NCBI GenBank assembly: GCA_963920525.1
Contig: OY986438.1
Coordinates: 49,263,788-49,327,787 of the forward strand
DNA from: Dichetophora obliterata
Taxonomy: Eukaryota; Arthropoda; Insecta; Diptera; Sciomyzidae
DNA length: 64,000 bases
Reading direction: 5' to 3'
Below, one piece after another: positions 98-63,543 of this stretch. Positions within the stretch are counted from its first letter, which is position 1; the number at the start of each line of letters is the position of its first letter. A program made the position numbers and the translations under genes. The notes under the pieces are model-generated. The model saw only the letters and a list, made by a program, of their open reading frames with translations. It had not been told where the DNA came from and did not search any database.

Positions 98-1838
98 AGG
101 GTTCAGAAATTTTCACTCATGTAACAGAAATCTCCAACATAAATGTCAATAAACACTATTTGAAGCACACAACACACAATGTTATTTTTATTTCATTTTT
201 GTGTGTAACGTAGTTATCGTGTTGTTGATCATCCAACATGAATTCTTCGTTTTAATATTTGCTTGTGCGTCACAAACTCAAACAATGATCGATCTCAACA
301 ATTCTCTGTGTTTCAGTTTTACACTTATGTTTGCGTCAAAATGTTCATGTTGGAGAATTCAGGCCTTTGTCAAAACCAAAACAAAGACAATTTTTCCAAC
401 ATGAATAAGTGGTGTTTGCAAAATTGTCTTTGTTTGTGTCGGTCATTAAGATCGATCACTACCGTCGTGTGGCGTAAAAAACCAATGCTGTTCTGGTTGC
501 TGTGCAGCGTATTGAATTGGTTTTTGGCCAAGTGTAGCAAATTTCGGCGTCAATTAGAAAATATTTTAAAATATTAAAATAATAACCTAATAATATGTTT
601 TTTCAAGAGATTTAAACGTCATTTATCAGTGTTAAGGGGTCGCTGATTTCGAATCTAAAGTCAGAATGTTAAAATTCAAGATAGCGGATAGTGTTGCCAC
701 CTTAATTTTTTTTAGTTTTATGAATTCGGGGCTGGTAAAAAAAAATAGTACACTAAAAATGGGTCGCTGAATCCGAATCCGTTGTCAGAATTTTCAAATT
801 ATGAAATTTTGAAATGATAGGGTTGCCACCTAATATTATATCTTTTCAAGAGTTTTAAACGTCATTTATCAGTATTAAGGGGTCGCTGATTTCGAATCTA
901 AAGTCAGAATTTTAAAATTCAAGATGGTGGATAGGGTTGCCACCTTAATTTTTTGTAGTTTTATGAATTCGGGGCTGGCAAAAAAAAATGGTACACCAAA
1001 AATGGGTCCCTCAATCCGAATCCGTTGTCAGAATTTTCAAATTATAAAATTTTCGAAATTCGATATCAGCGACCCCTTAACACTGATAAATGACGTTTAA
1101 AACTCTTGAAAAGACATCCTATTAGATGGCAACCCTATTATTTCAAAATTTTATAATTTGGAAATTCTGACAACGGATTCGGGTTCAGCGACCCATTTTT
1201 GGTGTACCATTTTTTTTTGCCAGCCCCGAATTCATAAAACTAAAAAAAATTAAGGTGGCAACATTATCCACTATCTTGAATTTTAACATTCTGACTTTAG
1301 ATTCGAAATCAGCGACCCCTTAACACTGATAAATGACGTTTAAATCTCTTGAAAAAACATATTATTAGGTTATTATTTTAATATTTTAAAATATTTTCTA
1401 ATTGACGCCGAAATTTGCTACACTTGGCCAAAAACCAATTCAATACGCTGCACAGCAACCAGAACAGCATTTGTTTTTTACGCCACACGACGGTAGTGAT
1501 CGATCTTAATGACCGACACAAACAAAGACAATTTTGCAAACACCACTTATTCATGTTGGAAAAATTGTCTTTGTTTTGGTTTTGACAAAGGCCTGAATTC
1601 TCCAACATGAACATTTTGACGCAAACATAAGTGTAAAACTGAAACACAGAGAATTGTTGAGATCGATCATTGTTGGAGTTTGTGACGCACAAGCAAATAT
1701 TAAAACGAAGAATTCATGTTGGATGATCAACAACACGATAACTACGTTACACACAAAAATGAAATGAAAATAACATTGTGTGTTGTGTGCTTCAAGCAAA
1801 TGTTTGTGAGTGAAGGTGTGTGAATATTCTGAACCCTG
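98..1838. mobile_element. hAT-type non-autonomous foldback element
   Basis: The ends are inverted copies starting CAGGGTTCAGAA (98-109; mirrored at 1827-1838). They are flanked by a perfect 8-bp direct repeat ATCTATAG at 90-97 and 1839-1846. An 8-bp duplication with CAGGG termini is the hAT signature. The two arms (about 98-700 and 1240-1838) are near-identical inverted copies. A 104-codon open frame occurs in both arms (263-577 + and 1692-1378 -) with one residue differing, but it resembles nothing I know and is probably passive. The centre holds two direct units and one inverted unit of a 243-bp module marked by GAATTCGGGGCTGG (722, 965) and its complement (1220). No transposase is present, so it would need a hAT transposase in trans. 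Confidence 0.85.
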
Positions 1839-1846
1839 ATCTATAG
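1839..1846. repeat. 8-bp target-site duplication, right copy
   Basis: ATCTATAG, identical to 90-97. It is followed by unrelated AT-rich sequence with a T-run. Confidence 0.85.
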
Positions 1847-1959
1847 TAATAAAATCCATTTTCTGTTTGTTTTTTTTTTTTGTTTATTTGTTTGGCCTTT
1901 ATACAAATCTAAATTGCTCAGCGGATTTCACTCAAAATAGGTAAACATATTCAGTGCAT

Positions 1960-4080
1960 ACGTGATGTAATTATGACATACTTAGTTTTTGCAACGCCCC
2001 CTCTGAAATTTCTCAACTAACTGTAATTTTATTAATGCAGTACTTTTTACCACCGGAAATTTTTTTGTATTTACTTTTAAAAATTTTTTGTTATTTTGAC
2101 ATCAAAAACACTCACATGTCTTTATAATTGTAGAAATTTTTAGTACAACAAATTTTTCATAAAACATCGTTACATAAGAATGAGAAAAAAATTATATGAA
2201 AATCAAAGTTTTGACTTTCGAGGCAAATATTTCCGCTTTTCATGAAAAAAAAACTTTCACGAGATGAGAAAGAGAGAAAATGTGATTTCTCCTCTCTATT
2301 ACCCAATTCTCTCAGTAAACGACGCTTTTCAGGCACTTTCTAGGTAACACTTTTGAAATATTTCGTTTGAATTCGATTACGCGAACAGACCTATTAAGTG
2401 CATTCTAACTTAAAATATTACATACTTATTTTTTGCCACTCCCCCTCCGAAACTTTTCAACTAACGGTAATTTTGTTATTATAAATTTTTTTAGTATCGG
2501 AGATTTTTGTGTATGTAATTTCAAAATTTTTTTGTTATTTTGACATCAAAAACACTCACATATATTCACAATTGAAGAAATTTTCAGTACAACGATTTTT
2601 TCATAAAATATCGTTACCTAAGAATGAAAAAAAAAAACGACATGAAAATCAAAGTTTGGTCTTTCAATGCAAATATCTTCGCTGTCCATTAATATATTTC
2701 AGTCAAATTTTTTTTTTAAAGTTTAATAAAATCACTTTACAAAAATGGGTTGAACTGTACCGTTAAGTTAGTGTATATATGTTTTATGATTATATCAAAA
2801 AAGGTTCAAAATATTGACCTTTTACTCAAAAACTGACTCAAAAATTGTTGTTATTGTAAAAATGAAATCAATTAAAAATTGCACATCTAGTTACCTTTTA
2901 TATGACATAGCAAAAATTCTTCCAGCTAAGATCAAAAATTATTTTACTGTTTTTGTAAAACAATAAGGGTCATCACAAAATTTATTTTTTCCAAAATGTT
3001 GTTTTTATATTTTTTACAAAAAATTCAAGTCTCAAAAATAATTTATGTGAAAAAATTACCCCAATATCTTTTTCCAATCAAAAGTTATGGCTAAAAATCT
3101 ATTTTTTCATCCAGACTATTAATAAAACTGAGTTTTGTTTTAAAATTCTCTATATAGTTTGAACGTCCCCATATTTCTCTAAGAATGCAGTTGAGTGTCT
3201 AGAGTAATTACGAACATTTTGGACTATATAAAACCTTCCTTATAGTAAAATTCTACTTAGTTTTTTTTACTTCCCCCCCCCCCCTCCTGGTAATTTTATT
3301 TTCTCACTATTGTGTCACCGTTATCACTCAGTTCCTTATCAATGGTACTTTAAGTGTTGTATATATATCACAAATTTGTCGAAAAGATGACTGTGAATAA
3401 GAATGCTGTAAAAGTTAATATTTTCATGTAATCAGTTTCAGCTATGTGGCGATATAATAAAACATATGCGCATCTGGTCAGCACAATTATTTCATTAGTT
3501 TTGATCTGTGGGTTAAATTCACAGATAGATGTCGCCACATTTGAAATTACTGTGGGTACAAACTATACACCTTGCGGTGAATAGCTGAATAATGTTTTTT
3601 CAAAAGTTTCTTCAAATTTAACCCCACACGTTTGGGATTACAGACAGGTGGCGCTATTTTCTGCTTACAGAAGAAAATCTGATGTTCTTATGTAGCAAGC
3701 AGATAAGTTTTGCGAAAATGCTATTGCTACCAAACTTTTAAAAAGTAAAATAATGTATTACTGCCAGTTTTTTCAATCGCAGCGTCATCTAGCGTCATCA
3801 ACACTTGAAAACATAGAATTGGATCAATTTAAATGTCTAGCTCACTTGCTGGATTTTTTGTTGTTTTTTTTTTCATGCAAATGCGATTATATGATCCTGA
3901 TCTCCAATGAAAAAACGCAGCTAGTAGAACTTTTAGTACAATCATTTTTAGTAAAATGAATTTTTCATAAAACAATGATAGCTAATAATGAGAAAAAATT
4001 ATATGAAAATCAAAGTTTTTACTTTTAATGCCAATAACTCCGCTGTTTTTAATATATTTCGTTAAAATTTTTTTTTTTGT
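1960..4080. repeat. Degenerate direct repeats, about 270 bp, three copies
   Basis: A block containing TTGTTATTTTGACATCAAAA, then CAAAAACACTCACAT, then a TTTTTCATAAAA segment and GAAAATCAAAGTTT occurs at about 1980-2240 and again at about 2425-2690. A partial third copy lies at about 3935-4070. Copies differ by substitutions and small indels. No coding capacity is seen in or between them; 2.7-3.9 kb is otherwise plain AT-rich sequence with a C-run at about 3275. A distant relative may occur near 59.6-59.8 kb. Confidence 0.55.
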
Positions 4081-4439
4081 TAAAAATTTCAATATATTTT
4101 TTAACATAAATCTTTGTTTAGATGTTCAAATGTCCATATCTCAATGACGCATTGAGTCCCACCATAATTTTTATGTTGTTGAAAAGGTAATTTTGCTTGC
4201 TTTAAGATTAAGTACATATAAAAATTATTTCTTATTTTTAATATATGTTTTTCCTACCCCCTCTTTGAATTCAATTAGCTCACCGCAAGAGATGGATCCA
4301 CCAACAACAAGAATTTTCCAAAACTTTTTTGGCATAATATTCGTTCAATTACCTTTCTAACGGTAGCTTACAAATAAAATTCAACATGTTTGTCATTATT
4401 CCAGAATTTAAAAAACATTTAATCGAGAAGTGTATGTTA

Positions 4440-4483
4440 AAATGTTTATATAAATGACTCTCGAGTAGCACCGGGTATATCAG
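4440..4483. repeat. Possible terminus of a rolling-circle type repeat
   Basis: The segment reads GAGTAGCACCGGGTATATCAG followed by CTAGT. The opposite strand begins ACTAGCTGATATACCCGG. A similar start, ACTAGCAAATACCCG followed by CTACTTCGCC, lies at 59130-59155 on the + strand. CTAG followed by T is the usual 3' end of Helitron-type elements, but I could not place a matching 5' end, so the class is a guess. Confidence 0.3.
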
Positions 4484-5723
4484 CTAGTTTAAAAATAAAT
4501 TTAATGAGGAATATCCTTATATAATCTCCTATATTGAAAGCGAAAGTTTAGTTTAATGACTAAAAAAAGTAAACAATATTAATAAATATTTGTTTGCAAA
4601 AAAATATTTTTTTGCAAATGTTATATTTTGGTATGCAGAAGTGCATAAAAACCTATATGTATGTTTTTTAAATGAAAAAAATATATTTTAAAACTTTTTT
4701 CAATATTAAAAAGTTAAAGCTTTAATCTCTAATAAATTTTTTTATACATAAATATTTTTACTTATTTTAATAATCCCTTAAAAACGGAGAAACTTCGATA
4801 TTGCAACGTTATTATAAGCCAAAATAAAAGATATACTTAAAATCTGAATTGGTTTCTGAAATCAGCGACCATATGTTAATAAATCATCGTGCAAAATTTC
4901 ATAAAAATCGAACGGCTCCTTGTATTCTCTTTTGTATGGGCTCAAAGTACAGTGCGACGGATACTAATATTGATAAGAGATGACTTTTCTTTTAGTTCAA
5001 CATGTAAGGAAGGCATAACTTTTCATAATTTGTTGAACAATTTAGCAATTAAGAACTGAATAAAACTTTGAATTAGAAGAAACTTTGTATTTGCTCTACT
5101 TTGATTTGCTTTATCTGTACCTACAAATTTATGTAAATGTATTCAAAATTTTGCTATCGTTGTTCGCTTCATATATTCTTGTTCCGCACAACTACATACA
5201 TCATCAGCAGCTCTTCTTCATTCAGATGATGTTATACATTTTTCGCATTGGTTTCTACGCAACCAAATAATTATAATATTTTAAGAGGGTAAATTATTAT
5301 ACTTTTTCTTTTAAGAAATGCAACTTTAAATAAAAACTTTTTATATATTTTGTAAAATTACAAAATGTAACATTAAAAATTATGTTAGTTATATCACCAC
5401 GAACCATCATCCTTTCAAAATAAGCTCTTTAACGTTGTTTTTATAGATATCTGTTGTCCTGTTTTTATCAAAACCATCATCATTATCATATATGTTAGCG
5501 AAAAATCTTCACTTTTTCTCATAAAATGTACACAAAATTTAAACATTACTTTAAGATACATACAAAATAACAGACAGAGATACTACAAAGATACAACAAA
5601 CCAACATAAAAGCGAATTTTACAAGTTTCAGAGATAACTTAAATGCTAATATATTTTTATTTATATATTTTTTTAACGTTTCTACGCAACTCAACGTCTT
5701 GGCTTAATTGTATGACACCACAG
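4484..5723. other. AT-rich intronic/intergenic stretch
   Basis: No gene, inverted repeat or clear repeat was found. It lies just 5' of the channel exon. The last part ends in the acceptor TATGACACCACAG at 5711-5723. Confidence 0.5.
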
Positions 5724-5938
5724 GAGTTACAACAATGCTGAATTTTTTCACCACATCCAATGGTTTCCGCAGCACACTTCCGGTCGTGTCCAATCTCACC
5801 GCCATGAATGTCTGGGATGGTGTTTGTATGTGTTTCATCTACGCTTCGCTACTGGAGTTTGTGTGCGTCAATTATGTCGGTCGCAAGCGTCCTCTACACA
5901 ATGTCGTCTATCGCCCTGGTGAAAATCCAGTTACACAG
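5724..5938 (+). CDS. pHCl-1: pHCl-type Cys-loop chloride channel, exon with M2-M3
   Basis: This is one internal exon of a pentameric ligand-gated anion channel, most like the insect pH-sensitive chloride channel. It opens after acceptor CACCACAG with two bases completing a Gly codon, giving (G)VTTMLNFFTTSNGF, the second half of pore helix M2. The M2-M3 linker (RSTLPVVSNLTAMNVWDG) and M3 (VCMCFIYASLLEFVCVNYVG) follow, then the start of the cytoplasmic loop (RKRPLHNVVYRPGENPVTQ). It ends CAG before donor GTAAGC at 5939, phase 0. The 71 complete codons carry no stop. The (L)GVTT motif is typical of the anion-selective branch (GluCl, HisCl, pHCl); the wording around FVCVNYVGRKRPLHN is what suggests pHCl from memory. 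The ligand-binding domain and M1 must lie 5' of the window. The next exon in phase is at 21623. Confidence 0.75.
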
Positions 5939-7244
5939 GTAAGCAAACCCAAACCGCAATCATCTTAAATTAATTATGGCCAGTATTACCAAAATTTATT
6001 TAAGTGCAAGAAAATAGAAACTTTGAAAAAAGAATAAAAAAGAAAAAAAAAAGAAAATCGAGGCTAGTTTTACCTAGTGTTTACGTATTAGAATATTTCA
6101 TGTAAATTTTGTCCAACCAGAAGTCATGCCTTACGACAACAACAACATTCATTATTTATGTATCTATTTATCTAAGCTATCTTTCCTGTACTTTTCGAAT
6201 ATTTCAATCTGCATCTCCTAAATAACTTTTCTGCTCACTAACTTTTAAATCTTTTTAATATTCATGTGTTTCGTTTATGTACTCGTATGTTTCCAACATG
6301 ATATTTAATAGTGTTTCATTTCTTTTTGAAAATGTCCCATTTTTTGCGTTACAAAATTAATGCATCATCGTGTTTGTTTATTTGTTGTGATGCCAGTCAG
6401 ATTCTTACTCAGAGCTCAGTACAAAAACAAGAGTTAAAAAACTAACAATAGAAAAACAAAAACAATTTTTTATCTATCCAATGAATGTGTTTTAGTTGTT
6501 TTAAGTTTGTATCTTACGTATTTGTTCTGTATAATGTTTCTGTTAATTTTTTTATGTATGTATGTATGTGTGTGTTTGTTTAAAGAAAAGTTACTCTTAT
6601 GAACTATAGGACTCTGTTGAAGTGTTGGTATGTATGAAATATTTTTTATGGAAAATATTTGTACATAAGTTTACGTTCCTTTATGAAGCATAAAAAATTG
6701 TCTAGCTAAATAAAAAATGCTGCTTGGTAGAATATTAAATGTTGGTGTGAAAAGAAATGATTTAAGGACAGAAAAAAATCTGCTTTACAAGCTTTGCAGA
6801 TTTTAATATGCAAAATATATAAATTTTGTAAAGAGACCAACCCAGTGAACTTTATTAACAAGCTGTGATGGCTGCTAAAAAGATTTTAAAATCTTGCCTG
6901 AAAATTTTATCCTTAAGGGAAACTTATCTACCTTGTTACCGCTGCGTGAGGCGAAACATAACTGAATTCATTAAAATTATTTTTATAGAAAATCAAAATA
7001 TTCACAATAGTGGACTTAAATTTTTCTTTTTTCCTTTTGACGTTAAGTTAAAAAGTTAAAAAATGTTATTTGTCAAAAAGCCCTTTTAGTTTTAAGTTCA
7101 CAAGAAAGTAACAAGTTTTAAGTTTTTTAAATTTTTTGTTTTACTCTAAACCTTAAATAAGATACAATACAAATACAATTGACTGTGTCGTTGTCAGGTT
7201 GTCATTTCCTCGTATTCTGTTCTTGCCGTTGACAAAGATTTAAC
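5939..7244 (+). other. Intron sequence, 5' part of a 15.7-kb intron
   Basis: It begins with the donor GTAAGC. AT-rich with no coding signal. A short TATG/TG microsatellite lies at about 6550-6582. Decayed RTE sequence starts at about 7245. Confidence 0.5.
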
Positions 7245-7765: not shown

Positions 7766-7776
7766 CCTAGCTGATT

Positions 7777-8157: not shown

Positions 8158-8609
8158 GACATAACCAGGGTTGCCAGCTCGTTTTATGGCTTTCCCCGCA
8201 GTGATTCTCAGAATTCCCCGATTTTTCATTAAATTCCCCACAAAAAAATTTTAATGAATTTACAACAATAATGTAAGGATTTCATAAATTTTAAGAAAGC
8301 TATTCATTTTGATAAAAAAATTACACTATAAAATTTAAAAAAACAATAACTTTAAAAAAGGAAAATGTGTTTTCGAGTCGCGACTTCAAACTTTGAAGCT
8401 ACAAAATGTCGATGGCCCGATTCTAAAGTATGTTAAGAGTGGTTTCAGGCAAACAATTTTTTGAAAATTAATTTTTTTTACATTTGATTATTGTTGTAAA
8501 GGGTGTTTTTTTAGAGGTTTGTTTTTCGAATAGAGATAAAACTGGCATTTTGTGGTCAAATCTGGCAACTCTAATGTCATTTATGTTCAGTTTGGTTTGC
8601 CATTTCATC

Positions 8610-10040
8610 ATGAACAGGTTGACAAAAGAACAACGCTTGCAAATCGTGCAAATTTATTTCGAAAATAATGGTTCAGTTCGCGAAGTTTACCGCAAGCTCC
8701 GTCCATTTTATGGTCGACATAATCGTCCATCAGAGCAATTAATTCGGTTAACCATGGGTCGTTTTCGCACTACGTTTACTCTATGTGATAATACGCATCC
8801 GCAGAGACGTCGAACAGTGCGCACCGAAGAAACAATTGCCGTTGTAGAGCAAAATGTTGAAGAGGACCCGAATGAATCGATTCGCCACCGTGCACAGCAA
8901 TTGGAGCTTTGTCTATCAACTTTATGGAAGATTTTGCGGAAAGATCTTGGCTTGCGACCTTACAAGATCCAGCTTGTGCAGGAATTAAAGCCGCGAGACC
9001 ATGCAATGCGTCGTGATTTTGGTGTATGGGCCGAAAATGAGATTGATCTCGATGCTGATTTTCATCGCAAAATTTTGTTCAGTGATGAGGCTCATTTTTG
9101 GTTGAATGGCTACGTGGCGGCCGTAGCCTAGTGGGTAAAGTACGTGGCCCCTAAGCTTAAGAACCGCGGTAGCCCGGGTTCAATTCCAGCTCAGACAGAA
9201 AGTTTTTTAATTGAATTAATTTTTCTGTTCGGCCGTCACCTCTCTGCAGACAATGGCAAACCTCAGAGAGTAAAAATTGCCATGTAAAGCTTCTTGAATA
9301 CATAAGCCGTTCGGAGTCGGCATAAAACACGTAGGTCCAGTTCTCTTGGTCATTTGTGATTAAACATTTAATAACACGCACAACACAATTGATCAATAGA
9401 AGCTAGGTCAAAGTCCTTCCAAGGGCTGAAATGGCCAGTTTATTTTATATTTGGCTACGTCAACAAGCAAAATTTCCGCATTTGGAGTGAAGAGAATCCA
9501 CATGAGACCCTTGAGACGCCATTACATCCACAAAAACTGACTGTTTGGTGTGCTCTATGGGCTGGTGGAATCATTGGGCCATACTTCTTCCGAAATAATG
9601 CTGGAGAGTCAGTTACCGTTAATGGAGACCGGTATAGAGCCATGATAACCGACTATTTTGTTCCCGAATTGGATGGCATGAATGTGGATGAGTTGTGGTT
9701 CCAACAAGACGGCGCTACATGCCACACAGCGCACGTCAAAATCGATTTATTGAAGGAAACATTCGATGAGCGCATAATTTCGCGGAATGGACCTGTCAAT
9801 TGGCCACCAAGATCGTGTGATTTGACACCATTGGATTATTTTCTTTGGGGATATGTGAAGTCGTTCGTCTACGCCAACAAACCAGAAACGTTAGGGGACT
9901 TGGAAGCCAACATTCGTGGCGTTATTGCCGACATACGGCCCCATATGCTCGAAAAAGTGGTTGAAAATATGACCTGTAGAATTGGCTTTATTCGAGGCAG
10001 CCGTGGCGGCCACATGCCCGACATCATATTTAAACACTAA
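8610..10040 (+). pseudogene. DD41D mariner transposase split by a SINE
   Basis: Start ATG 8610 (MNRLTKEQRLQIVQIYFENN) gives an N-terminal helix-turn-helix region. Joining 8610-9115 to 9461-10040 restores 361 codons with no stop or frameshift. Catalytic motifs: the first Asp is in FSDEAHFWLNGYV, the second in FQQDGATCHT and the third in CDLTPLDYFLWG. Counting from the second Asp to the Asp of PLDYF gives 41 intervening residues, the DD41D spacing of the rosa group. As it stands the SINE adds an in-frame stop after GYVAAVA, so no full protein can be made. It is likely to have been inactivated recently, because the rest of the frame is intact. Confidence 0.9.
9116..9451 (+). mobile_element. tRNA-derived SINE, copy 1
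   Basis: The head is tRNA-like with RNA polymerase III boxes: A box TAGCCTAGTGG at 9124-9134 and B box GGTTCAATTCC at 9177-9187. The body contains GACAGAAAGTTTTTTAATTG, then TTTCTGTTCGGCCGTCACC, and a tail ending GGCCAGTTTATTTTATAT. It is flanked by the 9-bp duplication TGGCTACGT (9107-9115 and 9452-9460) inside the mariner transposase. Copies 2 and 3 are at 24.1 and 26.0 kb. It encodes no protein and would move with a LINE's reverse transcriptase. Confidence 0.9.
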
Positions 10041-13960: not shown

Positions 13961-16046
13961 ACTTACTTACTGGCGCTACAACCGTATGTCGGTCTTGGCC
14001 TCATCTAAGAATTGCGCCAGCCATTTCTATCTTTCGCTTGCTGGCGCCAGTTGGAAATTCCAAGCTTCGTCAAGTTGTCCTCTACTTGGTCTTTCCAACG
14101 AAGATGCGGTCGTCCTCTTCTGCGTTGACCGCCGCTGGGTACCGAATCGAATGTTTTCTTCACTGGAGCATCGTCTTTCATGCGCTGAACATGACCAAGC
14201 CAGCGAAGCCGTTCGATTTTAATGCGCTTGACTATGTCGATGTCAGCGTACAGCTCATACAGTTCATCATTCCACCATATTCGGTACTCGCCATTGACGC
14301 AGATTGGTCCGTAGATCTTACGAAGAATCTTTCTCTCGAATGCTCCTAAAGTCTTTTCATCTAAACTGCTCAGCGTCCAGGTTTGTGATGCATAAAGTAA
14401 GACGGGCATGATGAGCGATTTATAGAGCGTGATTTTCGTTAGTCGAGAGAGGGCTCTGCTTCTCAATTGCCTACTGAGCCCAAAGTTACACCTGTTGGCA
14501 AGAGTTATTCTTCGTTTGATCTCAATGCTGATGTCGTTGGTTGAATTAATGCTGGATCCCAGATAAACGAAGTTCTTCACAACCTCGAAGGAGGTATTGT
14601 CAACGGTAACGTGGGTTCCAAGACGCTGGGACTGTTTGTTTGTTGACACTAAGTATTTCGTCTTATCTGCATTCACTGCCAGACCCATTCGACTTGACTC
14701 TCTTTCTAATCTGAAAAATGCTGCACTGACTTCGCGCGTATTATGGCCAATGATATCGATGTCATCAGCATACGCAAGCAGCATAACACTCTTGCAGAAT
14801 ATTGTGCCACTACGTCTCAGATCAGCAGCTCGGATGATCTTTTCCATCATTAGGTTGAAAAAGTCACACGATAAGGAATCACCTTGTCTGAAACCTCGTT
14901 TGGTAATAAATGGTGGGGAGAGGTCCTTCCCGATTTTAACTGCGCTGCTGGTGTTGCTAAGTTATCCTGCAAAGTCGTATTAGTTTTGCAGGAATACCAA
15001 ATTCAGACATGGTGGAGTACAGGTGCTTCCTTATTGGGCTGTCGAAAGCGGCTTTATAGTCGACAAAAAGATGGTGGGTGTCGACTTGTTTTTCTTGAGT
15101 CTTCTCCAAGATTTGTCGTAGCGTGAAAATCTGGTCGATGGTGGACTTTCCAGGTCTGAAGCCACACTGATAAGGTCCAATCAGTTCATTTACAATGGGC
15201 TTCAATCTTTCACATAAAACGCTCGACAGGACCTTATATGCGATATTAAGAAGGCTTATCCCACGGTAATTGGCACAGATAGTGGGATCGCCTTTCTTGT
15301 GGATTGAGCAGAGCACACTGAGATTCCAATCATTCGGAATGCATTCTTCCGACCATATTCTGCATAGAAGCTCGTGAATGCATTTAAGTAGAGCTTCGCC
15401 TCCGTTCTTAAACAGCTCAGCAGGTAAGAAATCAGCTCGCGCGGCTTTGTTATTTTTAAGCCGCGCTATAGCTGTCAAAACTTCATCATAGTAGGGCAGC
15501 GGAACCTCAACGCTGTCATCCGTAATTGGGGTTTCCGGAATATCATCTCTATTGGCGGGATTGTTGTCAGCATCGCCATTTAGAAGCTTAGAGAAGTGTT
15601 CCCTCCATAACGTCAGTGTACTCTGGACATCTGTCACTAGATTCCCGTCTTCATCCTTGCAGGAAGAGGCCCCGGTTTTAAAACCATCGGCAAGGCGGCT
15701 TATTTTTTGGAAAAATTTTCGGGCCTCATTCCTGTCACCATACATCTCAATCTTTTCTTGGTCGCGCTTTTCTGCCTCTCTTTTTTTCCGCCTGAAAATA
15801 TGTCTCTCTTCCCTTCTTTTTTCTTTGTATCGCTCCTTAGCAGCGCGCGTTACAACCGACTGCAGGGTGGCTTTGTAGGCGGCACGCATGGAGTTGGAAA
15901 TGTGTGTCCACTGCGCGCATACATATATCATCGATTGGAGGAGTGCTTTGATGCAGGAGTGAGAGTCGAGTGGCGAAAGCATTGGCTGTCTGTTTCGATT
16001 GTAGCTTGTCGACGTCTAGCTTTCTCTGTGTAGGGTTGCGTGTGTT
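13961..16046 (-). mobile_element. RTE-type non-LTR retrotransposon, 5'-truncated
   Basis: It is flanked by a 13-bp duplication CAATATTAAATAT (13948-13960 and 16047-16059). On the - strand it ends in a short AAGT-type tail (AGTAAGTAAGT) next to the left duplication, which sets its 3' end. The reverse transcriptase is recognisable but the endonuclease is missing, so the copy is 5'-truncated, as is usual for target-primed insertions. Related fragments lie at 7245-7765 and 54415-54545. Confidence 0.85.
14005..15982 (-). pseudogene. RTE reverse transcriptase, frameshifted
   Basis: Read on the - strand, 15982-14957 encodes the linker and RT fingers: a basic helix with ERYKEKRREERHIFRRKKRE, then ADFLPAELFKNGG, IPNDWNLSVLCSIHKKGDP, YRGISLLNIAYKVLSS, and GPYQCGFRPGKSTIDQIF with VDYKAAFDSP, in which the F-D of the palm is present. 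After a frameshift, GFRQGDSLSCDFFNLMMEK and the catalytic YADDIDIIG follow, then the thumb and the C-terminal RLRWLGHVQRM...GRP..RW signature typical of RTE/BovB-like elements (frame 14850-14005). YADD is intact. At least one frameshift near 14950 and the missing endonuclease make it non-functional. Confidence 0.85.
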
Positions 16047-22423: not shown

Positions 22424-22469
<46 letters not shown>

Positions 22470-48839: not shown

Positions 48840-51800
48840 TTAGTTTCTGGGTTCAATATCCAACCAGATACCACCTTTCAACATTGACATAAAATATGTT
48901 TCCTCGATATAGTTGTCCTGTCGTGTTTTTGGATTGACTTTTACATTGAATTGCTTTATAATATCGACAAGAGCAGCCTTTAATTGAGTCAAAGCAAAAC
49001 GCATGCCTGGGACGAAAGAGAAAACTCAAAATATTTTGATGAAAGAAACATCTTCATAAAACTAACCCAAACACACTCTTGGCCCATCGCCGAAACCCAG
49101 ATAAGCACCCATGTCACGATATTTCTTTACACCACCAGCCTCTTCCAAAAAGCGTTCGGGCACAAATTCTTCGGGATTTTCATAGATATCTGGATCATGC
49201 TGCAATGAATGGATAGGCACTTGCACCACCTGATTGGGCTCTAAACGCAGCTTGCTGCCATTTTTGTTCACAAATTCATAGGGTGCGGTGCAAATTTTAC
49301 GTGCTACCAGTTGAGGTGAAAATATGCGAATGGTTTCTGAAAGATTTAAAGGTTTTTATAGGTATATGAAAAGAAATTTTAACGGCTGTGATATATATAC
49401 AATACCGTGAATAACGGCATCCAAGTAAGGCAATTCAGTCAAGTTTTCAAAACTTATTTCGCCAGCACTTTCAATCTCGTGGCGTAGCTTTTCCTGGGCT
49501 TCCGGATAACGTCCAAGCTGTGAGAAAATGTGAGAAAATAACGACTATATTTATAAATCAAATCATAACCATAACCATAACCATAACCATAACCATAGCC
49601 ATAGCCATAACCATAACCATAACCATAGCTAACCATAACCATAACCATAACCATAACCATAACCATAACCATAACCATAACCATAACCATAACCATAACC
49701 ATAACCATAACCATAACCATAACCATAACCATAACCATAACCATAACCATAACCATAACCATAACCATAACCATAACCATAACCATAACCATAACCATAA
49801 CCATAACCATAACCATAACCATAACCATAACCATAACCATAACCATAACCATAACCATAACCATAACCATAACCATAACCATAACCATAACCATAACCAT
49901 AACCATAACCATAACCATAACCATAACCATAACCATAACCATAACCATAACCATAACCATAACCATAACCATAACCATAACCATAACCATAACCATAACC
50001 ATAACCATAACCATAACCATAACCATAACCATAACCATAACCATAACCATAACCATAACCATAACCATAACCATAACCATAACCATAACCATAACCATAA
50101 CCATAACCATAACCATAACCATAACCATAACCATAACCATAACCATAACCATAACCATAACCATAACCATAACCATAACCATAACCATAACCATAACCAT
50201 AACCATAACCATAACCATAACCATAACCATAACCATAACCATAACCATAACCATAACCATAACCATAACCATAACCATAACCATAACCATAACCATAACC
50301 ATAACCATAACCATAACCATAACCATAACCATAACCATAACCATAACCATAACCATAACCATAACCATAACCATAACCATAACCATAACCATAACCATAA
50401 CCATAACCATAACCATAACCATAACCATAACCATAACCATAACCATAACCATAACCATAACCATAACCATAACCATAACCATAACCATAACCATAACCAT
50501 AACCATAACCATAACCATAACCATAACCATAACCATAACCATAACCATAACCATAACCATAACCATAACCATAACCATAACCATAACCATAACCATAACC
50601 ATAACCATAACCATAACCATAACCATAACCATAACCATAACCATAACCATAACCATAACCATAACCATAACCATAACCATAACCATAACCATAACCATAA
50701 CCATAACCATAACCATAACCATAACCATAACCATAACCATAACCATAACCATAACCATAACCATAACCATAACCATAACCATAACCATAACCATAACCAT
50801 AACCATAACCATAACCATAACCATAACCATAACCATAACCATAACCATAACCATAACCATAACCATAACCATAACCATAACCATAACCATAACCATAACC
50901 ATAACCATAACCATAACCATAACCATAACCATAACCATAACCATAACCATAACCATAACCATAACCATAACCATAACCATAACCATAACCATAACCATAA
51001 CCATAACCATAACCATAACCATAACCATAACCATAACCATAACCATAACCATAACCATAACCATAACCATAACCATAACCATAACCATAACCATAACCAT
51101 AACCATAACCATAACCATAACCATAACCATAACCATAACCATAACCATAACCATAACCATAACCATAACCATAACCATAACCATAACCATAACCATAACC
51201 ATAACCATAACCATAACCATAACCATAACCATAACCATAACCATAACCATAACCATAACCATAACCATAACCATAACCATAACCATAACCATAACCATAA
51301 CCATAACCATAACCATAACCATAACCATAACCATAACCATAACCATAACCATAACCATAACCATAACCATAACCATAACCATAACCATAACCATAACCAT
51401 AACCATAACCATAACCATAACCATAACCATAACCATAACCATAACCATAACCATAACCATAACCATAACCATAACCATAACCATAACCATAACCATAACC
51501 ATAACCATAACCATAACCATAACCATAACCATAACCATAACCATAACCATAACCATAACCATAACCATAACCATAACCATAACCATAACCATAACCATAA
51601 CCATAACCATAACCATAACCATAACCATAACCATAACCATAACCATAACCATAACCATAACCATAACCATAACCATAACCATAACCATAACCATAACCAT
51701 AACCATAACCATAACCATAACCATAACCATAACCATAACCATAACCATAACCATAACCATAACCATAACCATAACCATAACCATAACCATAACCATAACC

Positions 51801-53257
51801 ATAACCATAACCATAACCATAACCATAACCATAACCATAACCATAACCATAACCATAACCATAACCATAACCATAACCATAACCATAACCATAACCATAA
51901 CCATAACCATAACCATAACCATAACCATAACCATAACCATAACCATAACCATAACCATAACCATAACCATAACCATAACCATAACCATAACCATAACCAT
52001 AACCATAACCATAACCATAACCATAACCATAACCATAACCATACCAATAAGAGTGAATGCGCCAACACCGTGGCTGTTGTCTCAAACCCATCGGTCAGAA
52101 AAGTTACAGTGTGTGACGTTAACTCGGCCAAACTAAGTTTCTTTTTGTCTTGTAATTCCAGGATATACTTGAGAAAATCAGCACGATCAATATTCTTCGA
52201 CTTACGACGCAGGTCAATGGATGTCTGCATGAGTCCGAAAAAAAATTTCTCTGCTTGTTTTGAGAAAAGTGGAGCTATATAAAGTTTCCGAATCAGCGGC
52301 ATCATAGTCGATAGAACCGTATAGAAAATAAAGAAGGATGACTGATCGAATACATGCTTGATGGTCTCATAAACGGGCGTAGGTTGCTCACTAAAGCTGC
52401 GTGCACTAATGCCAAGTACACAGTCCGAAACCACTTCGGTGGTGAAGCGCAGGCAAAACTAGTTAATTTATAGAGTTTAGAAAATAAAATTGTAGATAAA
52501 GAACACATTGCTTATCCACCTCTTTTGCATTGAGACCATCTTTGGGTGCCATTTTACTCTGCTTGCGGAGATAATCGCAAAATGTTTTGCACACTTGCTG
52601 TGTCACCGGAAACACGCATTTCACCTTGAGATTAACAAAAGCCATAATTACTGTTGTTAACATTAACTTTATTACCACAACAATAAACTTACACGGCTTG
52701 CCGTTAGGCCCGGGGTGATTTCTGCACGTCTTTCCTTCCACTCCTCGCCACAGATAACAAATGGATTATTAGCAAAGACAAGATCCGACTCCTTATTCAA
52801 CTGAAATTATGTCCAACACATTAATGAGCACTTCCGTGTCATTAAGTATGGCAATTAAAGGTACTCACAAAATTGGAAAATTCATTGTCATGAAAATATT
52901 TGAAATCATTCACAAATATCTTGTGTGCATACTCCGGACACGTAATCAGCAATTGTGGAATGCGTGTATTCAAGGTACCCACATAATTTTCAGTATGTTT
53001 GTACTTTCTGCAAGGAAGCATAGATATAAAACACTTAGTTTTTACACACCGACTTTCACTTGCCTGTATATGTCGTCAACGTCGTAAACAACATTTCGTC
53101 GCGCAGTAAACTGACTGGGAAAACTGCCGAAGAATGGATAGGCTTTGGCTTGCTTGACGCCACGCTTCTTCCAGTAGCCAAAATTCCATACCAGAAATAT
53201 ATAGAATAAGCCAACTGCTATGGCTAACAGCACGAAGCTAGTGAAAAAGGGGAACAT
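48840..53257 (-). CDS. Cyp28: Cytochrome P450, CYP28 family, eight exons
   Basis: A microsomal haem monooxygenase of the insect CYP28 family. Exons on the - strand: 53257-53064, 53007-52869, 52800-52693, 52624-52520, 52458-52045, 49517-49406, 49336-49067 and 49006-48840. These join to 1,509 nt (502 codons plus stop), the normal P450 length. Residues about 3-24 form the membrane anchor, then YWKKRGV. The oxygen-binding I-helix motif DGFETT is at 305-310, ExxR (ETIR) at 358-361, PERF follows, and the haem loop FGDGPRVCLG is at 439-448 with Cys446. Family placement rests on resemblance to Drosophila CYP28 (TFLTDGFETTATVLAH; GFGDGPRVC.GMRF). Introns are 56-69 bp except intron 5 (2,527 bp), which is a hexanucleotide array. 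Intron 1 appears to use a GC donor. No stop or missing key residue, so it looks functional. CYP28 members are linked to detoxification of plant compounds; the substrate here is unknown. Confidence 0.9.
49518..52044 (-). other. CYP28 intron 5, expanded
   Basis: The donor is TTATTG followed by GTATGG at 52044, and the acceptor is TTTTCTCACAG ending at 49518. Both exon edges are phase 0 and join into AHSLLLLGRYPEAQ, matching family spacing exactly. Only about 45 bp at the 3' side, including the pyrimidine tract, is not repeat. Confidence 0.9.
49562..52043. repeat. (CCATAA)n hexanucleotide array, about 410 copies
   Basis: Tandem CCATAA on the + strand (GGTTAT/TTATGG on the gene's sense strand). 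The first 70 bp (49562-49630) contains three variant units (CCATAG twice near 49595-49606, and CCATAGCT at 49623). From 49631 to 52043 (2,413 bp) every unit I read is identical. The array starts four bases inside the intron donor. It gives long false open frames on both strands (Asn-His, Leu-Trp, Met-Val and Gly-Tyr dipeptide repeats), which are not genes. Confidence 0.97.
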
Positions 53258-56537: not shown

Positions 56538-57270
56538 TTTTTTTGCAGTTTTCTTCGTGTTGGAACGATATTTTAGAACTTTTTTTTATAAAATAGAAAG
56601 CCAACAATATTTTAGGCGGCTACCGGGAAATACAGGTATCTACCTTAACTATAAGTATGTTTAATTAACGCTCAAAAATGAAATATGCCTGGTCAGAACC
56701 AGAAAAGACAAGTTTCCTTATGTTTGCTTAGAATCATTTTTTATTCAAAACACATAATTGTATATTGTAAGAGGCTAATAATGTAATTTTATAGTTTTGT
56801 TATATTAAAGTTGACAATGAAGAAAATCAATTTGACCAATAACTTAATTAAATAGTTTTGCAGCTATCATGAGAAATGCATTAAAATCAGTTCCAGTCTC
56901 AACAACCTGCTCTTGATACATATTTATAAATGATTTAACACCACCTCAAAATAGAATCCATCACACGAAGCAAACCTAAAACAAACAGTTCTCAAACGAA
57001 AACAAAGTTTATTCTTTCGAAAGTCAAGCAGAAAGCTGCTTAACATTTATTCGAGCTTTCTAGATAATTGATCCATTGTTCAAAATTCAAAGCTGCTTTC
57101 TTTGCAATAAAAGAGCTCAGCTCACTTGAGCTTTGTTATAAATGAAATACGAATCAAGACTTAAAAGCTTTTGCTGCAACTGACAACTAAAGAGATCGTC
57201 GACGTATTGCAAGCAACTAAACAATAACAAAAGCAAACAAATACAGACACAATGGCAGCAGCAGCATTGA
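56538..57270. other. Unassigned AT-rich sequence
   Basis: No gene or repeat was recognised. Confidence 0.4.
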
Positions 57271-57272
57271 TA

Positions 57273-57539
57273 CCCAATGTGCACAAAAACGGATGCGGAT
57301 CCGTTACGAACCCGTTACGAGTCCGTCAGTACGCACTACGCTTTCTTATGTTTCGTCGGACCCGTTACGAATCCGCCAAAAGAGTCTGAAACGGATTCGT
57401 ATCTGAAGTCCGAAACGGATTCAGGAATTTCATACGAAAAAGGATCCGTTCCGGATGCGAAACGCAATCCGTTTCGGACAAAATGTACGAAGAAGTGAGT
57501 TCGTTACGGATTCGTTACAGATCCGTTTGGCACACTGGG
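57273..57539. mobile_element. TA-flanked CpG-rich miniature element
   Basis: CCCAATGTGC (57273) mirrors GCACACTGGG (57530-57539), and TA lies outside each end (57271-57272, 57540-57541). Mirroring continues inward (AAACGGATGCGGATCCG / CGGATTCGTTACAGATCCGT). The 267 bp is filled with CCGTTACGAA / AAACGGATTCG motifs and is strikingly rich in CG dinucleotides compared with its surroundings. No protein. TA duplication suggests a Tc1/mariner-type mobiliser. Confidence 0.7.
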
Positions 57540-57541
57540 TA

Positions 57542-59125
57542 TGTACTAAAAACAAACATACATGGATACATAAAGCTCCGAGAAAACTAAACAAAAGATT
57601 GTGGGAGAAAATAGAAGGAAAATAATTGTTAACAAAGATGAACACAAATAAAGTCGGAACCAACACTTTGATAATTGCCAGGATGTAGCAGCTGCTAGCA
57701 GCAATTAGTTCAGTTAAGGTTCACAACAAATGTTCTTGCCGCACTGACCTAGTTATTTGGATTCCCATTGCTCATTTTAAGAGTTCGGTGTTAGGTGTTG
57801 ATGGAGTTGTATTGAAGCGCCTGCCAAAGAACGAAGAGAAAAATTTTAAGAACTTATTTAAAGGAGCATGATTTTAAAGGCCTAGCAACGAATATCTTGT
57901 GACTAGATGTAAAGTGAATATGTACATAAGTTGTTTAATTTTGAAGCTGATCTAGTTGGCACAAACAACATTTAGCCCTAAGGAATGCTCCAAAGAAGTT
58001 GTTTGTATTTTAAGAAATCAGTTTAAAATATGTGTAAGTTTATAATACTTAGGCTTAAATCAAATTTCTAACTAGAGCACCAGATTCAACTTGCTAAGGG
58101 TACGTTATAATAAACTAATCCTTCCCGAAGTGCTCAACTTAAGTCAATTTATCGAATAAATATTCAACCACAATATTTCAGAATTATGTGCTGCCTTGCA
58201 AATTATGCCATAAAAGCTCTGACATTTCTTTTTAAGTTGTTGCCACTCTTTGCTGCCTAAGATGTAGCCTAAGTGTTTGGCTTCTAGCCACTGCCTACCG
58301 AGAGCATTCAAACTAATTTGCCAAAGCAGCCAAACAAATCATCGAAGCACTGTTAACCACACAAATACACAAAAACCCACACACACACAAGCAGGCGCAT
58401 TCAAGCACACTATGATTTCGTTATTTTGGCCAGTTTCGAGTAGCGCTTCCTGTGTGTTACAAACTTGTAACACCGCCAGCTAACACGTTCAACGGAAGCA
58501 ACAATAATCAAGAATGGTGGAAAGTGTGTGCCACACACATATACACACACAATAGCACAACACTATTACGGCAATGTTCACACTTTGAAAATGTAGCGCC
58601 TCGTTATCGTAAAAATTAAGCACAGTAGCAGCAGCAGCAATAGCAAACTCTGTACAAAATGTTTCAATAATATTTGAGCATGAATTTAACGCAGTAATAC
58701 GTTTTAATGAGCACACTTCTATTTAAAATGAAGTCACACGTTAAGCATACATCACATTACAATGTAACGTACTAAGTTTTTGTTGTACTCACGTACAAGA
58801 GTACTTTTGTCTGCAGGGTGTTTTTCCTATATCAAAAAGGAAGTTTCTAATGAGCCATAGTTTTTGTCTTTTTAATGGTTTGAGGTATTGGTTCCTGCCA
58901 ACAGCGGTTTTGTAATAAAAGCTTTCCCACAAAAGCAGGGGTTTGCTCATATTAATCAAGCTTAATTTTTGTCGTAACAAAAACTGTTTAAACAAATTCA
59001 TTACTAGTTCGTCGTTATTTAAATGGTAATTGGAATTACTTGATTGGCTGTCAGCAATTTGTTAAAAATGGTTAAGTATTTCAAAAACTTTTTTTAAGGT
59101 TCTTGCAAAATATATTTACACTAGC
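57542..59125. other. Unassigned sequence
   Basis: Short CA-rich tracts lie at 58365-58392 and 58533-58550. No gene was recognised. Confidence 0.4.
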
Positions 59126-59129
59126 AAAT

Positions 59130-60530
59130 ACCCGCTACTTCGCCTGCAATAAAAATATTAAATACCATGTGCAAAGTTGAAATCTTAAAATTAAAGTATT
59201 TAGTTGTGTTAAATCAAATGCAATATATAAAAATTATTGTGTTTGTTCTGTTAAATCATGAAAAAATGGTATAAATATTAAAAAATTACTTTATTTAATT
59301 TGATTACCTTATTTAAATGGTAGTTGTTATGATGATATAAATTTGATTGGATATTTCTGTATTTTGATTTTTAAAAAAGTCGTACATAAAAGGGTCATAA
59401 AAAAATGTGGGAAAAAAATTTTTAAAATTTGTAATTCAAGAATGTTATTTTTTTAACAGAGATTCTAAAAATTAATATATTCTTATTAAAATAAAAAAAA
59501 AAATATGTCATCAAGGTCGTATGAAAATGACATATGAAAGGTCGTATTTCTGTATGAAAAGTCGTTGAATAATAAAAATTAAAGCTTTTTCGCAAATATT
59601 TTTTACAGATAGTAGGTATGTTAAAACAAATCCCGTTATTAAGACATCAAAATTATTGCGATATCTCAAAAGCTATAGATTTGCTCAGTATTACGCATTT
59701 TCTTATGCCCCAAAATGAGAAAAAAACGATTGAATTTTAAGTTTTGACTTAGCAAGCAAACATCTCCGCCATTTTCAAATCGATTTGTGCAATGTAATGT
59801 TTTGTATTGTTTTATATACCTCTATAATATGCAATTTGTACTCCAAAATAGGCCAAAAGTTATTTTTTGTTGTACATTTTTTATTTAAAAATTTTTATTT
59901 TCCCTACTCTTCCATGTGACATACCATATATCTGCAAAAATTGCACCATTTTGACACATAAAAGTTTCTATCATTAAAAATCATGGGCCACCTACCTACC
60001 CCCACGCTATGATTTTTTGATTAAAATTTATTCGCTTAAAATATTGTTTTTATATATTCTACAATGTTCTACAGCTTAAAAACTTATTTCTGTGAACAAA
60101 AATTTCAAATATTTTAAACTATTCCAAAGATACATCCATAAATCTATGTTTTAATCTATTTCCTTATCAATATATTTACAGTGGACCCACCAGACGTTGT
60201 CCTGACCCAATTCAATAAATTTTTCATGATCGTTTTGTGAATTTATGAAAGTGTTTAAATTGATCTTCGAACAAGCACATGCCAGAAGTTTCCTTTTGAA
60301 ACATCAATGCATGACGATCAGAACCTTTTTATATATACAGCATTCCTATTGATTTATTGTATTCTCCGGCAGACGTTGTCCTGCCGCCGACCGCCTTACT
60401 GCTGTCTGCACGCCTTACGAATTTTCATGCTGTTTGGAAAACATTTTTTTATATATTCTTCATTTTTAGTACAGTTATCGAAAGTAACCGTGTGAACTAA
60501 ATTATCAAATTTCAGTCTTATACAACGACA
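59130..60530. repeat. Interspersed repeat block with CAGACGTTGTCCTG
   Basis: It begins ACTAGCAAATACCCGCTACT, like the complement of 4440-4483. Further on, CAGACGTTGTCCTG occurs at 60191-60204 and again at 60370-60383. The end region (AAAGTAACC.TGTGAACTAAA, 60480-60510) resembles 63785-63810. This is a family seen widely in insect genomes, but I cannot assign its class. Confidence 0.45.
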
Positions 60531-61396
60531 GTGTTGCCAGGTGCCTTTCACCATTTACCCCTAGACTGGATTTCAAATCCCCCTAAAATTTCCCTAAATT
60601 TTTTTTTCGAAAAACATACATAAAATTCATAGGGGCAACTGAAAAGTAGTGCAACTGCAATGCAAGCCTATGTCTTTAAAGGGTTGAACTGTTGGACGAA
60701 TTTAACAAGGGCAGAACGAATTTAACAAGGGCAGAAAGTTCTCAATTGTCCAATGTGAAATTGACATTAAAATTAAGTCTTACTTTTGAAAGGAGGCTCC
60801 GTCTCCTACTTTTTGATATAATTTTGGGCATATATTTTTTTCCCATACTTTTTTTCTAAAAGAACGAAGAACCAAGGCATGTGCCTTATGCAAACAACAT
60901 TTGGTCTTTGACCTGAAAGGTCAATTGTTAGAGGAAGAATAGGTTAAACATACGTGAATTATCGATTTGGCGGAACAAACTTGAAAGACAATTTGAATTG
61001 CTTACAACAGAGGTTAGTGTTATGCCTAAACCTCGGCAAGTATTTCCAGCCCTCAGTTGCTCCTGTCCTTTAATTAAACATTTTCCACAATTGAGTTGTG
61101 AATTTTTTATTTCAATCATTTTTAAATGTAGTAAAGAACAAAAAAGAACAAAAAACTCTTCACTAGACTGCAAATGCCGACTTGCTTTGTTTTTAGTTTT
61201 AACTCGGAATCAATCAATTGCAAGTAAAGCGCGAAGCAGGTTTGAAGTTGCTGAAATACCCAAGATTTAAAATATCTTCTTTTCTTAAATTTTTACATTA
61301 TTTTAAGCAAAAGTAAGAAAACTTTATTTCCAAAGGTTAATTTTTCAAATACATTTAAAAAACCCCTAAAAACATTAAATATCCCTTAAAAAACCC
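60531..61396. other. Sequence bordering the Harbinger-like element
   Basis: It starts CAGTGTTGCCAGG, which resembles hAT-type ends and the element end at 8166. CCCTAAA-type motifs occur at about 60555-60600 and again at 61355-61395. Possibly a larger element interrupted by the one at 61400, resuming at 63544-63640. Not certain. Confidence 0.3.
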
Positions 61397-61399
61397 TTA

Positions 61400-63543
61400 G
61401 GGCCATTTTGTTCACAGAGAGATAAATTTATCCCCGAGTTAATTCCATGATTTTTCCAGTTTTTCATTTGTTCACAGTGAGTTAAGCATTTAACTCTTCA
61501 AGCTGGAGATAAAAATGGTGGCGAGATAGCTTAACCCCAGAAATATTTAACTCGTGAAAATTGGTGAGTTAAGATTTTTAATTCGCTCTCATCACTCTCA
61601 TTTTAATATTTTTTATTTACTTGGTGTCAAAATATTGAAAATACAGATTTTTAAACATAGGGAAACAGTATTGGGGGTTACTGATTTCGAATCTGGTGTC
61701 AGAATTTTAAAATTTGGATTAATTTTTTATTTTTACGAATTCGGGGCTGGCGCGAACTAAAGGGTAAAAATGGGTCGCTGAATCCGAATCCGTTGTCAGA
61801 ATTTCAAAATTCGAAAATTTTTCTACACATAGGGCTGCCACCTAAAAATGTTTTATTTTAAGAATTTTAAACATGAGGGAACAGTATTGGGAGGTTACTG
61901 ATTTCAAATCTGAACTCAAAATTTTTAAATTCAAGATGGTGGATAGGGTTGCCACCTTAATATTCTACATTTTTACGAATTCGGGGCTGCCAAAAAAAAA
62001 TGGTATACCAAAAATGGGTCGCTGAATCCGAATTCGTGGCCAGAATTTAAAAATTATAAAGTTTTAAAATAATAGGGTTGCCACCTAATAATAAGTCATT
62101 TTAAGAATTTTAAACATTATTTAACAGTATTAGGGAGTCACTGATTTCGAATCTGAAGTCAGAATTTTAAAATTCAAAATGGTGGATAGGGTTGCCACCT
62201 AAGTTTTTTGCATTTTTATGAATTCGGGGCTGGCAAAAAAAAATGGTATACCAAAAATGGGTCGCTGAATATGAATCCATGGTCAGAATTTCAAAATTAT
62301 AAAATTTTGAAATAATAGGGTTGCTTTTACTTTTGAAAATACATATTATAAGGTGGCAGCCCCATTATTATAAAATTTTATCATTTTTAAATTCTGACCA
62401 CGGATTCGGACTCAGCGACCCATTTTTGGCATACCATTTTTTTGCCAGCCCCGAATTCATAAAAATACAAAAAATTAAGGTGGCAACCCTATCCACCATT
62501 TAAAATTTTAAAATTCAGACTTCAGATTCGAAATCAGTGACTCCTTAACACCGTTAAATAATGTTTAAAATTCTTAAAAATACTTATTATTAGGTGGCAA
62601 CCCTATTATTTCAAAACTTTATAATTTTGAAATTCTGACCATGGATTCATATTCAGCGACCGATTTTTGGTGTACCATTTTTTTTTTTGCCAGCCCCGAA
62701 TTCATAAAAATGCAAAAAACTTAGGTGGCAACCCTATCCACCATTTAAAATTTTAAAATTCAGACTTCAGATTCGAAATCAGTGACTCCTTAACACCGTT
62801 AAATAATGTTTAAAATTCTTAAAAATACTTATTATTAGGTGGCAACCCTATTATTTCAAAACTTTATAGTTTTGAAATTCTGACCATGGATTCATATTCA
62901 GCGACCCATTTTTGGAGTACCATTTTTTTTTTGCCAGCCCCGAATTCATAAAAATACAAAAATTTAAGGTGGCAACCCTATCCACCATCTTGAATTTTAA
63001 ATTTTTGACTTCAGATTCGAACTTAGCGACCCCAATACTCTTTCCTCATGTTTAAAATTCTTAAAATAAAACATTTTTAGGTGGCACCCCTACGTGTAGA
63101 AAAATTTTCGAGTTTTGAAATTCTGACAACAGATTCGGAAGAAGTAACCCCCAATACTGTTTCTTCATGTTTAAAATTCTTAAAAAAATGTTTAGTTGGC
63201 AGCCCTGTGTAGAAAAATGTTAGAAATGTTAAAATGTTAGAAATTCTGACATCAGATGCAAAATCAGCGATCCATTTTTACCTAGTGTTCACTCTAACCC
63301 TCAAATTCGCAAAAATAAACCAAAAATCCCCACACATTTTTTAATTAATGAGCAACACTCTAACATTCCAATGGAAATCGATATAAACTGAGAGCGAATT
63401 TATGCTCTAAGCATAAAGCTGGGATAAAATGTGAACAAAACCACTTTTTTATCTCCCGATTTATACGCTTGGTATAAAATTAACCTAGAGATAGTTATCC
63501 CCGAATTAAATCATATTTATGCCCTTTGTGAACAAAATGGCCC
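61400..63543. mobile_element. Harbinger-like foldback element, 2.1 kb
   Basis: The termini GGGCCATTTTGTTCACA (61400-61416) and its exact complement (63527-63543) have TTA directly outside each end (61397-61399; 63544-63546). The 3-bp TTA duplication and GGG-type ends fit PIF/Harbinger-derived miniature elements. The interior is a large palindrome: three direct units marked GAATTCGGGGCTG (61737, 61977, 62220) face three inverted units (62445, 62690, 62934), unit length about 243 bp, meeting near 62335. Every unit carries GGTGGCAACCC-type and CGCTGAATCCGAA-type segments. No transposase. The same module sits in the hAT-type element at 98-1838. Confidence 0.75.

Follow-up and report, generated by a model that had tools for sequence, protein, structure and literature searches.

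A ~243-bp repeat module lying between the ends of hAT-type and Harbinger-type non-autonomous transposons in the genome of Dichetophora obliterata

Among the closest described systems is Tetris of Drosophila virilis, which its authors suggest to be Mutator from the duplication size; the cited parts of that report describe a non-autonomous element of the foldback kind, whose inverted arms contain tandem repeats of ~220 bp and whose target duplications measure 8-10 bp (PMC4079207). The MtPH-A6-4 subfamily of PIF/Harbinger in Medicago truncatula contains variable tandem repeats, for which abortive gap repair was proposed in the section cited (PMC2213677). In Galileo of Drosophila, internal tandem repeats or inserted elements lengthen the inverted repeats, and the cited passages invoke recombination between copies (PMC4168063). 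Satellite-like arrays dispersed by non-autonomous mobile elements are described, in the part cited, for the Helentron-borne repeats of the Pacific oyster (PMC7492417). The present work concerns a repeated unit of ~243 bp in a stretch of 64,000 nucleotides from the fly Dichetophora obliterata (contig OY986438.1, positions 49,263,788 to 49,327,787; the whole stretch is called the window below), where it lies in two transposons, the hAT-type element A and the Harbinger-type element B, and in copies elsewhere in the genome.

With moderate confidence, we regard the ~243-bp units as a module, a heritable passenger of many non-autonomous DNA transposons that spread through nested insertion and loss of the donor ends. 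Nine families have the module between their ends, seven of hAT-type and two of Harbinger-type. Blocks that agree in their internal junctions are found again in families with unrelated ends. Moreover, the combinations of the module with families F8 and F7, and of F1 inside the repeat F6 (Table 1), recur at several places.

In the window, a hAT-type element had been placed at 98-1838; its type and 8-bp duplication stood, and its start was corrected to 97. The Harbinger-like element called at 61400-63543 with a TTA duplication was borne out by its ends and the flanking TTA. Element A was 93% self-complementary across 1645 columns. The two elements had also been claimed to share a ~243-bp unit with direct copies facing inverted ones, which was confirmed by alignment and by period: the best alignments, one for each relative orientation, showed 80.2% identity over 844 columns and 79.0% over 852 columns, and Tandem Repeats Finder revealed a period of 243 in A (585-1059) and also in B. 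By eye, the unit is composed of two diverged halves of ~120 bp, each with GGGTCGCTGA and GGGTTGCCACC. The 14-mer GAATTCGGGGCTGG, with up to 3 mismatches, was found ten times in the window (1.39 expected; maximum 5 in 100 shuffles), and nine of these matches were units, judged by position. Exact copies in A were located at 722 (+), 965 (+) and 1220 (-), two direct and one inverted; B contained three direct (one mismatched) and three inverted.

Copies of both elements chosen by similarity, the window copies included, had target duplications of the expected kind. All eight copies of A were flanked by 8-bp duplications, all different, and matching TTA or TAA was found in eleven of the twelve copies of B. 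The twelfth copy (L016) had TAA at one side and abutted a second copy across TTA at the other. Around 3242-3246 of L016, two Harbinger-type F2 elements of the same orientation flank a single TTA.

The exact 14-mer occurred 8189 times (4058 + 4131) in 1313 Mb, and the control pattern, read backwards, once. For an unselected sample we took the first 100 listed exact 14-mer places, on contig C1 between 2.16 and 18.39 Mb, which formed 56 clusters; all were fetched with ~1-1.5 kb at each side, with no similarity selection beyond the 14-mer, and the sample represents one stretch of one chromosome. With 100 places in 16.2 Mb, the sample is as dense as the genome on average, and a cluster held five exact 14-mers at most, so the sampled blocks are dispersed and short; long satellite arrays were rejected for this stretch. 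The module cores in the 56 loci sum to 57.5 kb, with a mean of 1.03 kb, and by extrapolation the module occupies 0.35% of the genome, about 4.7 Mb. Units in both orientations were found at 28 loci and units in one orientation only at the other 28. Long inverted arms with internal repeats, the character of foldback elements, were thus present in part of the copies.

Families were assigned through comparison of the module-masked flanks, a blind scan for ends and duplications, and the family end motifs. At least one family end was found in 54 of the 56 loci, both ends in 35, and an equal target duplication in 27 (7/8 or 8/8 bases for hAT-type, 3/3 for Harbinger-type). Nine families were distinguished, seven of hAT-type (F1, F3, F4, F5, F8, F9 and F10) and two of Harbinger-type (F2 and F7). 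We infer the two types here from the ends and target duplications. The seven hAT-type families have short terminal inverted repeats with end motifs which we take to be hAT-like, and both Harbinger-type families have terminal inverted repeats (Table 1). Autonomous PIF/Harbinger elements encode a DDE transposase plus a Myb-like partner gene.

Among the hAT-type loci with two ends, 20 of 26 showed 7/8 or 8/8 duplications (F1, 9/14; F3, 4/4; F4, 4/4; F8, 1/1; F9, 1/1; F10, 1/1), and the single two-ended F5 locus, with 6/8, fell below the threshold. The duplications of all four F4 copies were exact over 8 bp and mutually different. Equal triplets were found in six of the eight two-ended F2 loci, four of them TTA or TAA, and the one two-ended F7 locus had a TTA duplication. 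The family end was ranked first by the blind scan in 23 loci, another pair was best in 29 and nothing was found in 4. Flank clustering put L080, c10825421, L054 and L075 with F1, and these were reassigned by hand to F7 or F10 on their ends; L080 was linked to F1 by its flanks because it holds an F1 end. L084, with no recognised end, was kept in F1 on flank similarity. Queried with the F3 end alone (98-552, 455 bp), the genome gave 40 scored places among 1308 candidates with 99-100% identity over 454-455 bp, and the module was present in both copies whose interior was read. The original prediction also named the opposite outcome, with all copies in one family and the other case being a nested insertion that has its own duplication; nine families in 56 unselected loci contradict it, and a single module-bearing family was ruled out by the family table.

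The recurrence of one module edge might suggest that the module is a mobile element of its own, a foldback transposon or similar, inserting into other transposons. This edge, AGTTTTAGGGGTAAC, was found in 13 loci of F1, 4 of F4 and 1 of F7 (three bases shorter there), and half of the loci have units in both orientations. However, F1 and F4 do not share the opposite edge, and only L078 among the 56 loci lacks both family end and family flank. By eye, the module in F9 and in F4 had no target duplication at its edges, and in F8 the edges showed only a T-rich imperfect repeat (10 of 12), which is not decisive; no systematic edge survey was made. We consider an independent mobile element quite improbable.

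A crossing between transposon types was seen in the hAT-type family F8. Its module is collinear with the F2 module of the window over 61635-62867, through the same inversion centre (Table 1); a permissive alignment reached 60 bp further left with weak identity. Outside this block, the flanks of F8 and F2 were no more alike than shuffled sequences, the observed score being reached by 37 and 47 of 300 shuffles for the natural pairings and by 258 and 236 of 300 for the crossed ones. Of 585 candidates for the 276-bp end of F8, with the F8 locus itself included, 40 scored places matched at 97-100%. In three further copies, all three had the module at the same junction, carrying the left part of the block, with 92.5-93.1% identity to the window F2 module over 260-461 columns. 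From these end matches and the module in the copies read, F8 is a multi-copy hAT-type family of little divergence, with the module as part of the copies seen. The inversion centre, allowing up to 4 errors, was detected in 16 of 17 F2 loci (window included), the one F8 locus, 1 of 2 F5 loci and 3 of 21 F1 loci. In the Harbinger-type family F7, L080 and c10825421 share the junction between end and module, with the end 98% identical over 152 bp.

Long repeats are prone to mis-joining, and the combinations could in principle be assembly chimaeras. But the same junctions stand at different places in all four F8 copies examined and in two F7 loci, and matching duplications were found in F8, F4 and the F7 copy L080, which makes this hardly credible.

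Seven diagnostic alignment columns were defined on F2 units versus F3/F4/F9 units and then applied to the other families. All four units of F8 were of F2 type (7:0), as were five units of the F1 locus L083 (6 or 7 of 7 columns) and two of c11697858, also F1 (7:0). Most F1 units were of F3/F4/F9 type, and so was the module of both Harbinger-type F7 loci (five units with 0 or 1 F2-type column). Each module type therefore occurs with both hAT-type and Harbinger-type elements, and the module type does not follow the transposase type. The best cross-family pairs were F1-F9 (95.3%), F1-F4 (93.5%), F2-F8 (92.0%) and F4-F7 (91.7%), with others down to ~75%. Altogether, the original prediction of a passenger module moved between different element types is supported by nine families across the two types.

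The tree of 142 units (62 of 204 candidates were dropped because they did not align or aligned across fewer than 190 bp) required 30 label changes over ten labels, with a minimum of 9 and a shuffled mean of 75. A block tree was constructed for the F1 side from the stretch of module containing the F1/F4 edge, with 42 of the 56 loci (14 were omitted for a short match or a missed edge). In this tree F4, F7 and F9 were nested within F1, and F1 as a single clade was rejected by the approximately unbiased (AU) test (p-AU 7.35e-06, 21 rows vs 21). In the block tree around F8, F8 was grouped with F2 with support of 100/99.

These trees also bear on old common ancestry, in which an ancient module-bearing element lost and regained ends and the present families inherited the module. 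Window F3 and F2 units are ~80% alike and the grouping of units by family is much stronger than after shuffling, as such descent would have it; against it, the best cross-family identities are close to the identity within families, the family ends were unlinked in the masked comparison, and F4, F7 and F9 sit inside F1. Moreover, the transposases of hAT and Harbinger are unrelated. Considering all this, we find common ancestry very improbable.

As for how the module passed from one element to another, three states were observed. In the first, the unclassified repeat F6 carries, at a fixed position, an F1 element with both its ends, a composite present at four places; F6 could not be assigned to a superfamily. 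In the second, the Harbinger-type F7 copy L080 (144-2410, TTA at both sides) holds an F1 end at ~342-690, which is 94-97% identical to the five nearest F1 copies. The order in L080 is F1 end, another inserted repeat and module, and the module joins the other F7 end directly. For the other F7 locus, c10825421, the second end was not found. The inserted repeat (CATGGCAGAATTAGAGAAGG...), which adjoins the module in L080 (692-870), is also present in L054 (938-1116), with 96.6% identity between the loci.

In the third state, no internal end motif of the nine families was found in 10 of 13 elements checked, namely F8, F9, both window elements, a further F2, two further F3 and three of the four F4. 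A single internal end-motif match, of uncertain meaning, was found in L075 (F10) and another in c10737431 (F4). The simple nested insertion raised in the original prediction is thus partly involved (F1 in F6 and the F1 end in L080), and in the 10 elements named above no donor ends were found. F1 in F6, the F1 end in F7, and the module without donor ends in F8, F9 and F4 could be considered candidate intermediate states.

Two copies are of mixed type: the F1 locus L073 (hAT ends, 7/8 duplication) has one unit of 7:0 and one intermediate unit of 3:4, and the F2 locus L059 has one unit of the other type. Both fit gap repair or gene conversion between modules. If repair after excision copied ectopic module copies, modules could be swapped, or even first captured, without nested insertion; unit number and orientation indeed vary among copies of one family, and abortive gap repair is the published explanation for the variable tandem repeats of the Medicago Harbinger subfamily, as stated in the cited section (PMC2213677). 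But homologous exchange presupposes that both partners have a module already and leaves the first acquisition unexplained, and L080 retains a donor end, which argues for nested insertion at that copy. Gap repair or conversion between modules probably adds reshuffling; it may also be the main route, though as the whole explanation we hold it possible but rather doubtful.

Spread through nested insertion and loss of donor ends, which we favour, could proceed as follows. A module-bearing element would insert into another transposon, one or both donor ends would disappear, probably when gap repair after excision was aborted, or through deletion, and the transposase of the host element would then amplify the chimera. 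Repetition within the module would let later gap repair or conversion reshuffle the number and type of units. We infer these steps as the links among the three observed states. We might also speculate that the module is a selected, superfamily-independent passenger which raises the success of any non-autonomous DNA transposon and has been acquired repeatedly by hAT and Harbinger elements. The benefit could come from repair-prone repeats restoring the copy number after excision, or from hairpin transcripts altering silencing. We think such selection unlikely.

Several observations weigh against the spread of the module by nested insertion between nine families and two transposon types. Among the elements checked, none contained a complete donor from another family with its own target duplication, and F1 inside F6 shows no 8-bp duplication in any of the four cases (0, 4, 4 and 4 of 8 bases match). 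Several hAT-type ends share YARAGNNCTGC, so that distinct transposases may be far fewer than nine; F8 and F9 are represented by one locus each in the unselected sample; and two of the six equal F2 triplets are TAT and TCA rather than TTA or TAA. In the seven diagnostic columns, F5, F10 and single units of the F1 loci L082, L084 and c12294897 are intermediate, and L083 and c11697858 weigh less than F8 because each has one recognised hAT end. The unit tree leaves 83 of its 139 inner branches open, and in the block tree the F2 locus c11400667 stands on the F1 side though its two units type as F2. An F2 clade without F8 was not rejected (p-AU 0.111, 22 rows); with a wider set of 30 rows it was rejected (p 0.00018), to which an outlying F2 row contributes. 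No direction of the transfer between F2 and F8 follows from these tests. One from Harbinger to hAT, considered because of a small deletion pattern seen in the first unit, was dropped as the deletion ends are ambiguous and p-AU is 0.111.

Table 1. Module-bearing elements of the window, and families and composite repeats of the 56 sampled loci
Feature	Position or loci	Strand	Ends or motif	Remarks
Element A, hAT-type non-autonomous foldback element, family F3	97..1838	.	CAGGGTTCAGAA/TTCTGAACCCTG	Ends read directly
8-bp target duplication of A	Left copy 89..96, right copy 1839-1846		ATCTATAG	
Family-specific F3 end, without module sequence	97..552	+		A-versus-B matches start at ~552
Module within A	585..1350 (edges approximate)			243-bp units, two direct then inverted
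Element B, PIF/Harbinger-type non-autonomous element, family F2	61400..63543	.	GGGCCATTTTGTTCACA	
TTA duplication of B	61397-61399 and 63544-63546		TTA	
243-bp units in B	61766..63092			Direct copies facing inverted; six 14-mers, 61737 to 62947
F2 module part recurring in hAT-type F8	61635..62867	.		92.0% over 1247 aligned columns
Inversion centre	62318..62345	.	GGGTTGCTTTTACTTTTGAAAATACATA	
F1	21 loci		CAGAGAACTGCACA; end motif CAGAGAACTGCA	hAT-type
F2	16 loci		GGGCCATTTTGTTCACA	Harbinger-type (window B)
F3	6 loci		CAGGGTTCAGAA	hAT-type (window A)
F4	4 loci		CAGWGAYCTGCA	hAT-type
F5	2 loci		TARAGCCCTGCG	hAT-type by end motif alone
F7	2 loci		GGGCCRCTTTCTCAATG	Second Harbinger-type
F8	1 locus		TAAAGSTCTGCA	hAT-type
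F9	1 locus		CAGAGAWCTGCAA; end motif CAGAGAWCTGCA	hAT-type
F10	2 loci		TAAAGAGCTGCA	hAT-type
No family	1 locus (L078)			Neither family end nor family flank
F6 repeat carrying F1	C1_7773173 (L034), C1_11951846 (L048), L060, L063		TATTACGGTTCACA	

The window contained other features. A 2.5-kb (CATAAC)n hexamer array (49564-52043) extends in frame from a cytochrome P450 exon (Pfam p450), which is closest to Cyp28d1 of Drosophila busckii (64%); the minus-strand open reading frame (ORF) continues as (LW)n. At 8484-10040 (+) there are two ORF pieces, the first with a Pfam DUF4817 helix-turn-helix and the second with no Pfam match, which by eye resemble a degraded mariner/IS630-type transposase. Fragments of reverse transcriptase at 14005-15982 (-) matched RVT_1, one above the curated cut-off and the other below it, and by eye this is probably a non-long-terminal-repeat (non-LTR) element.

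The classification of non-autonomous DNA transposons usually follows their ends, and they are taken to evolve as families. In this genome, a block without evident coding role is found again across families and two transposon kinds, by extrapolation at thousands of loci, with enough recent copies to reconstruct donors and recipients, and the origin of the internal sequence in non-autonomous elements becomes testable. For repeat annotators, it is also a warning that an internal consensus is unfit for superfamily assignment.

Helentrons are a different kind of transposon, of the rolling-circle type, which makes no target duplication. They are the carriers of the Pacific oyster repeats, according to the part of that report cited (PMC7492417). 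Tetris differs from the module in that, in the cited parts of its report, the repeats lie in Tetris or in derived arrays, the exception being 13 repeats on five contigs beside other genomic elements; these parts do not place Tetris repeats inside hAT or Harbinger families (PMC4079207). The unit of MtPH-A6-4 is 60 bp and, in the section cited, is tied by the authors to that single subfamily (PMC2213677), and Galileo, as described in the passages cited, is one element of the P superfamily (PMC4168063). In the open-licence literature we found no report of a module shared across transposon superfamilies, which is a weak absence. Foldback non-autonomous DNA transposons bearing tandem repeats are already known, and the sharing of one module across families and two transposon kinds would be the new part.

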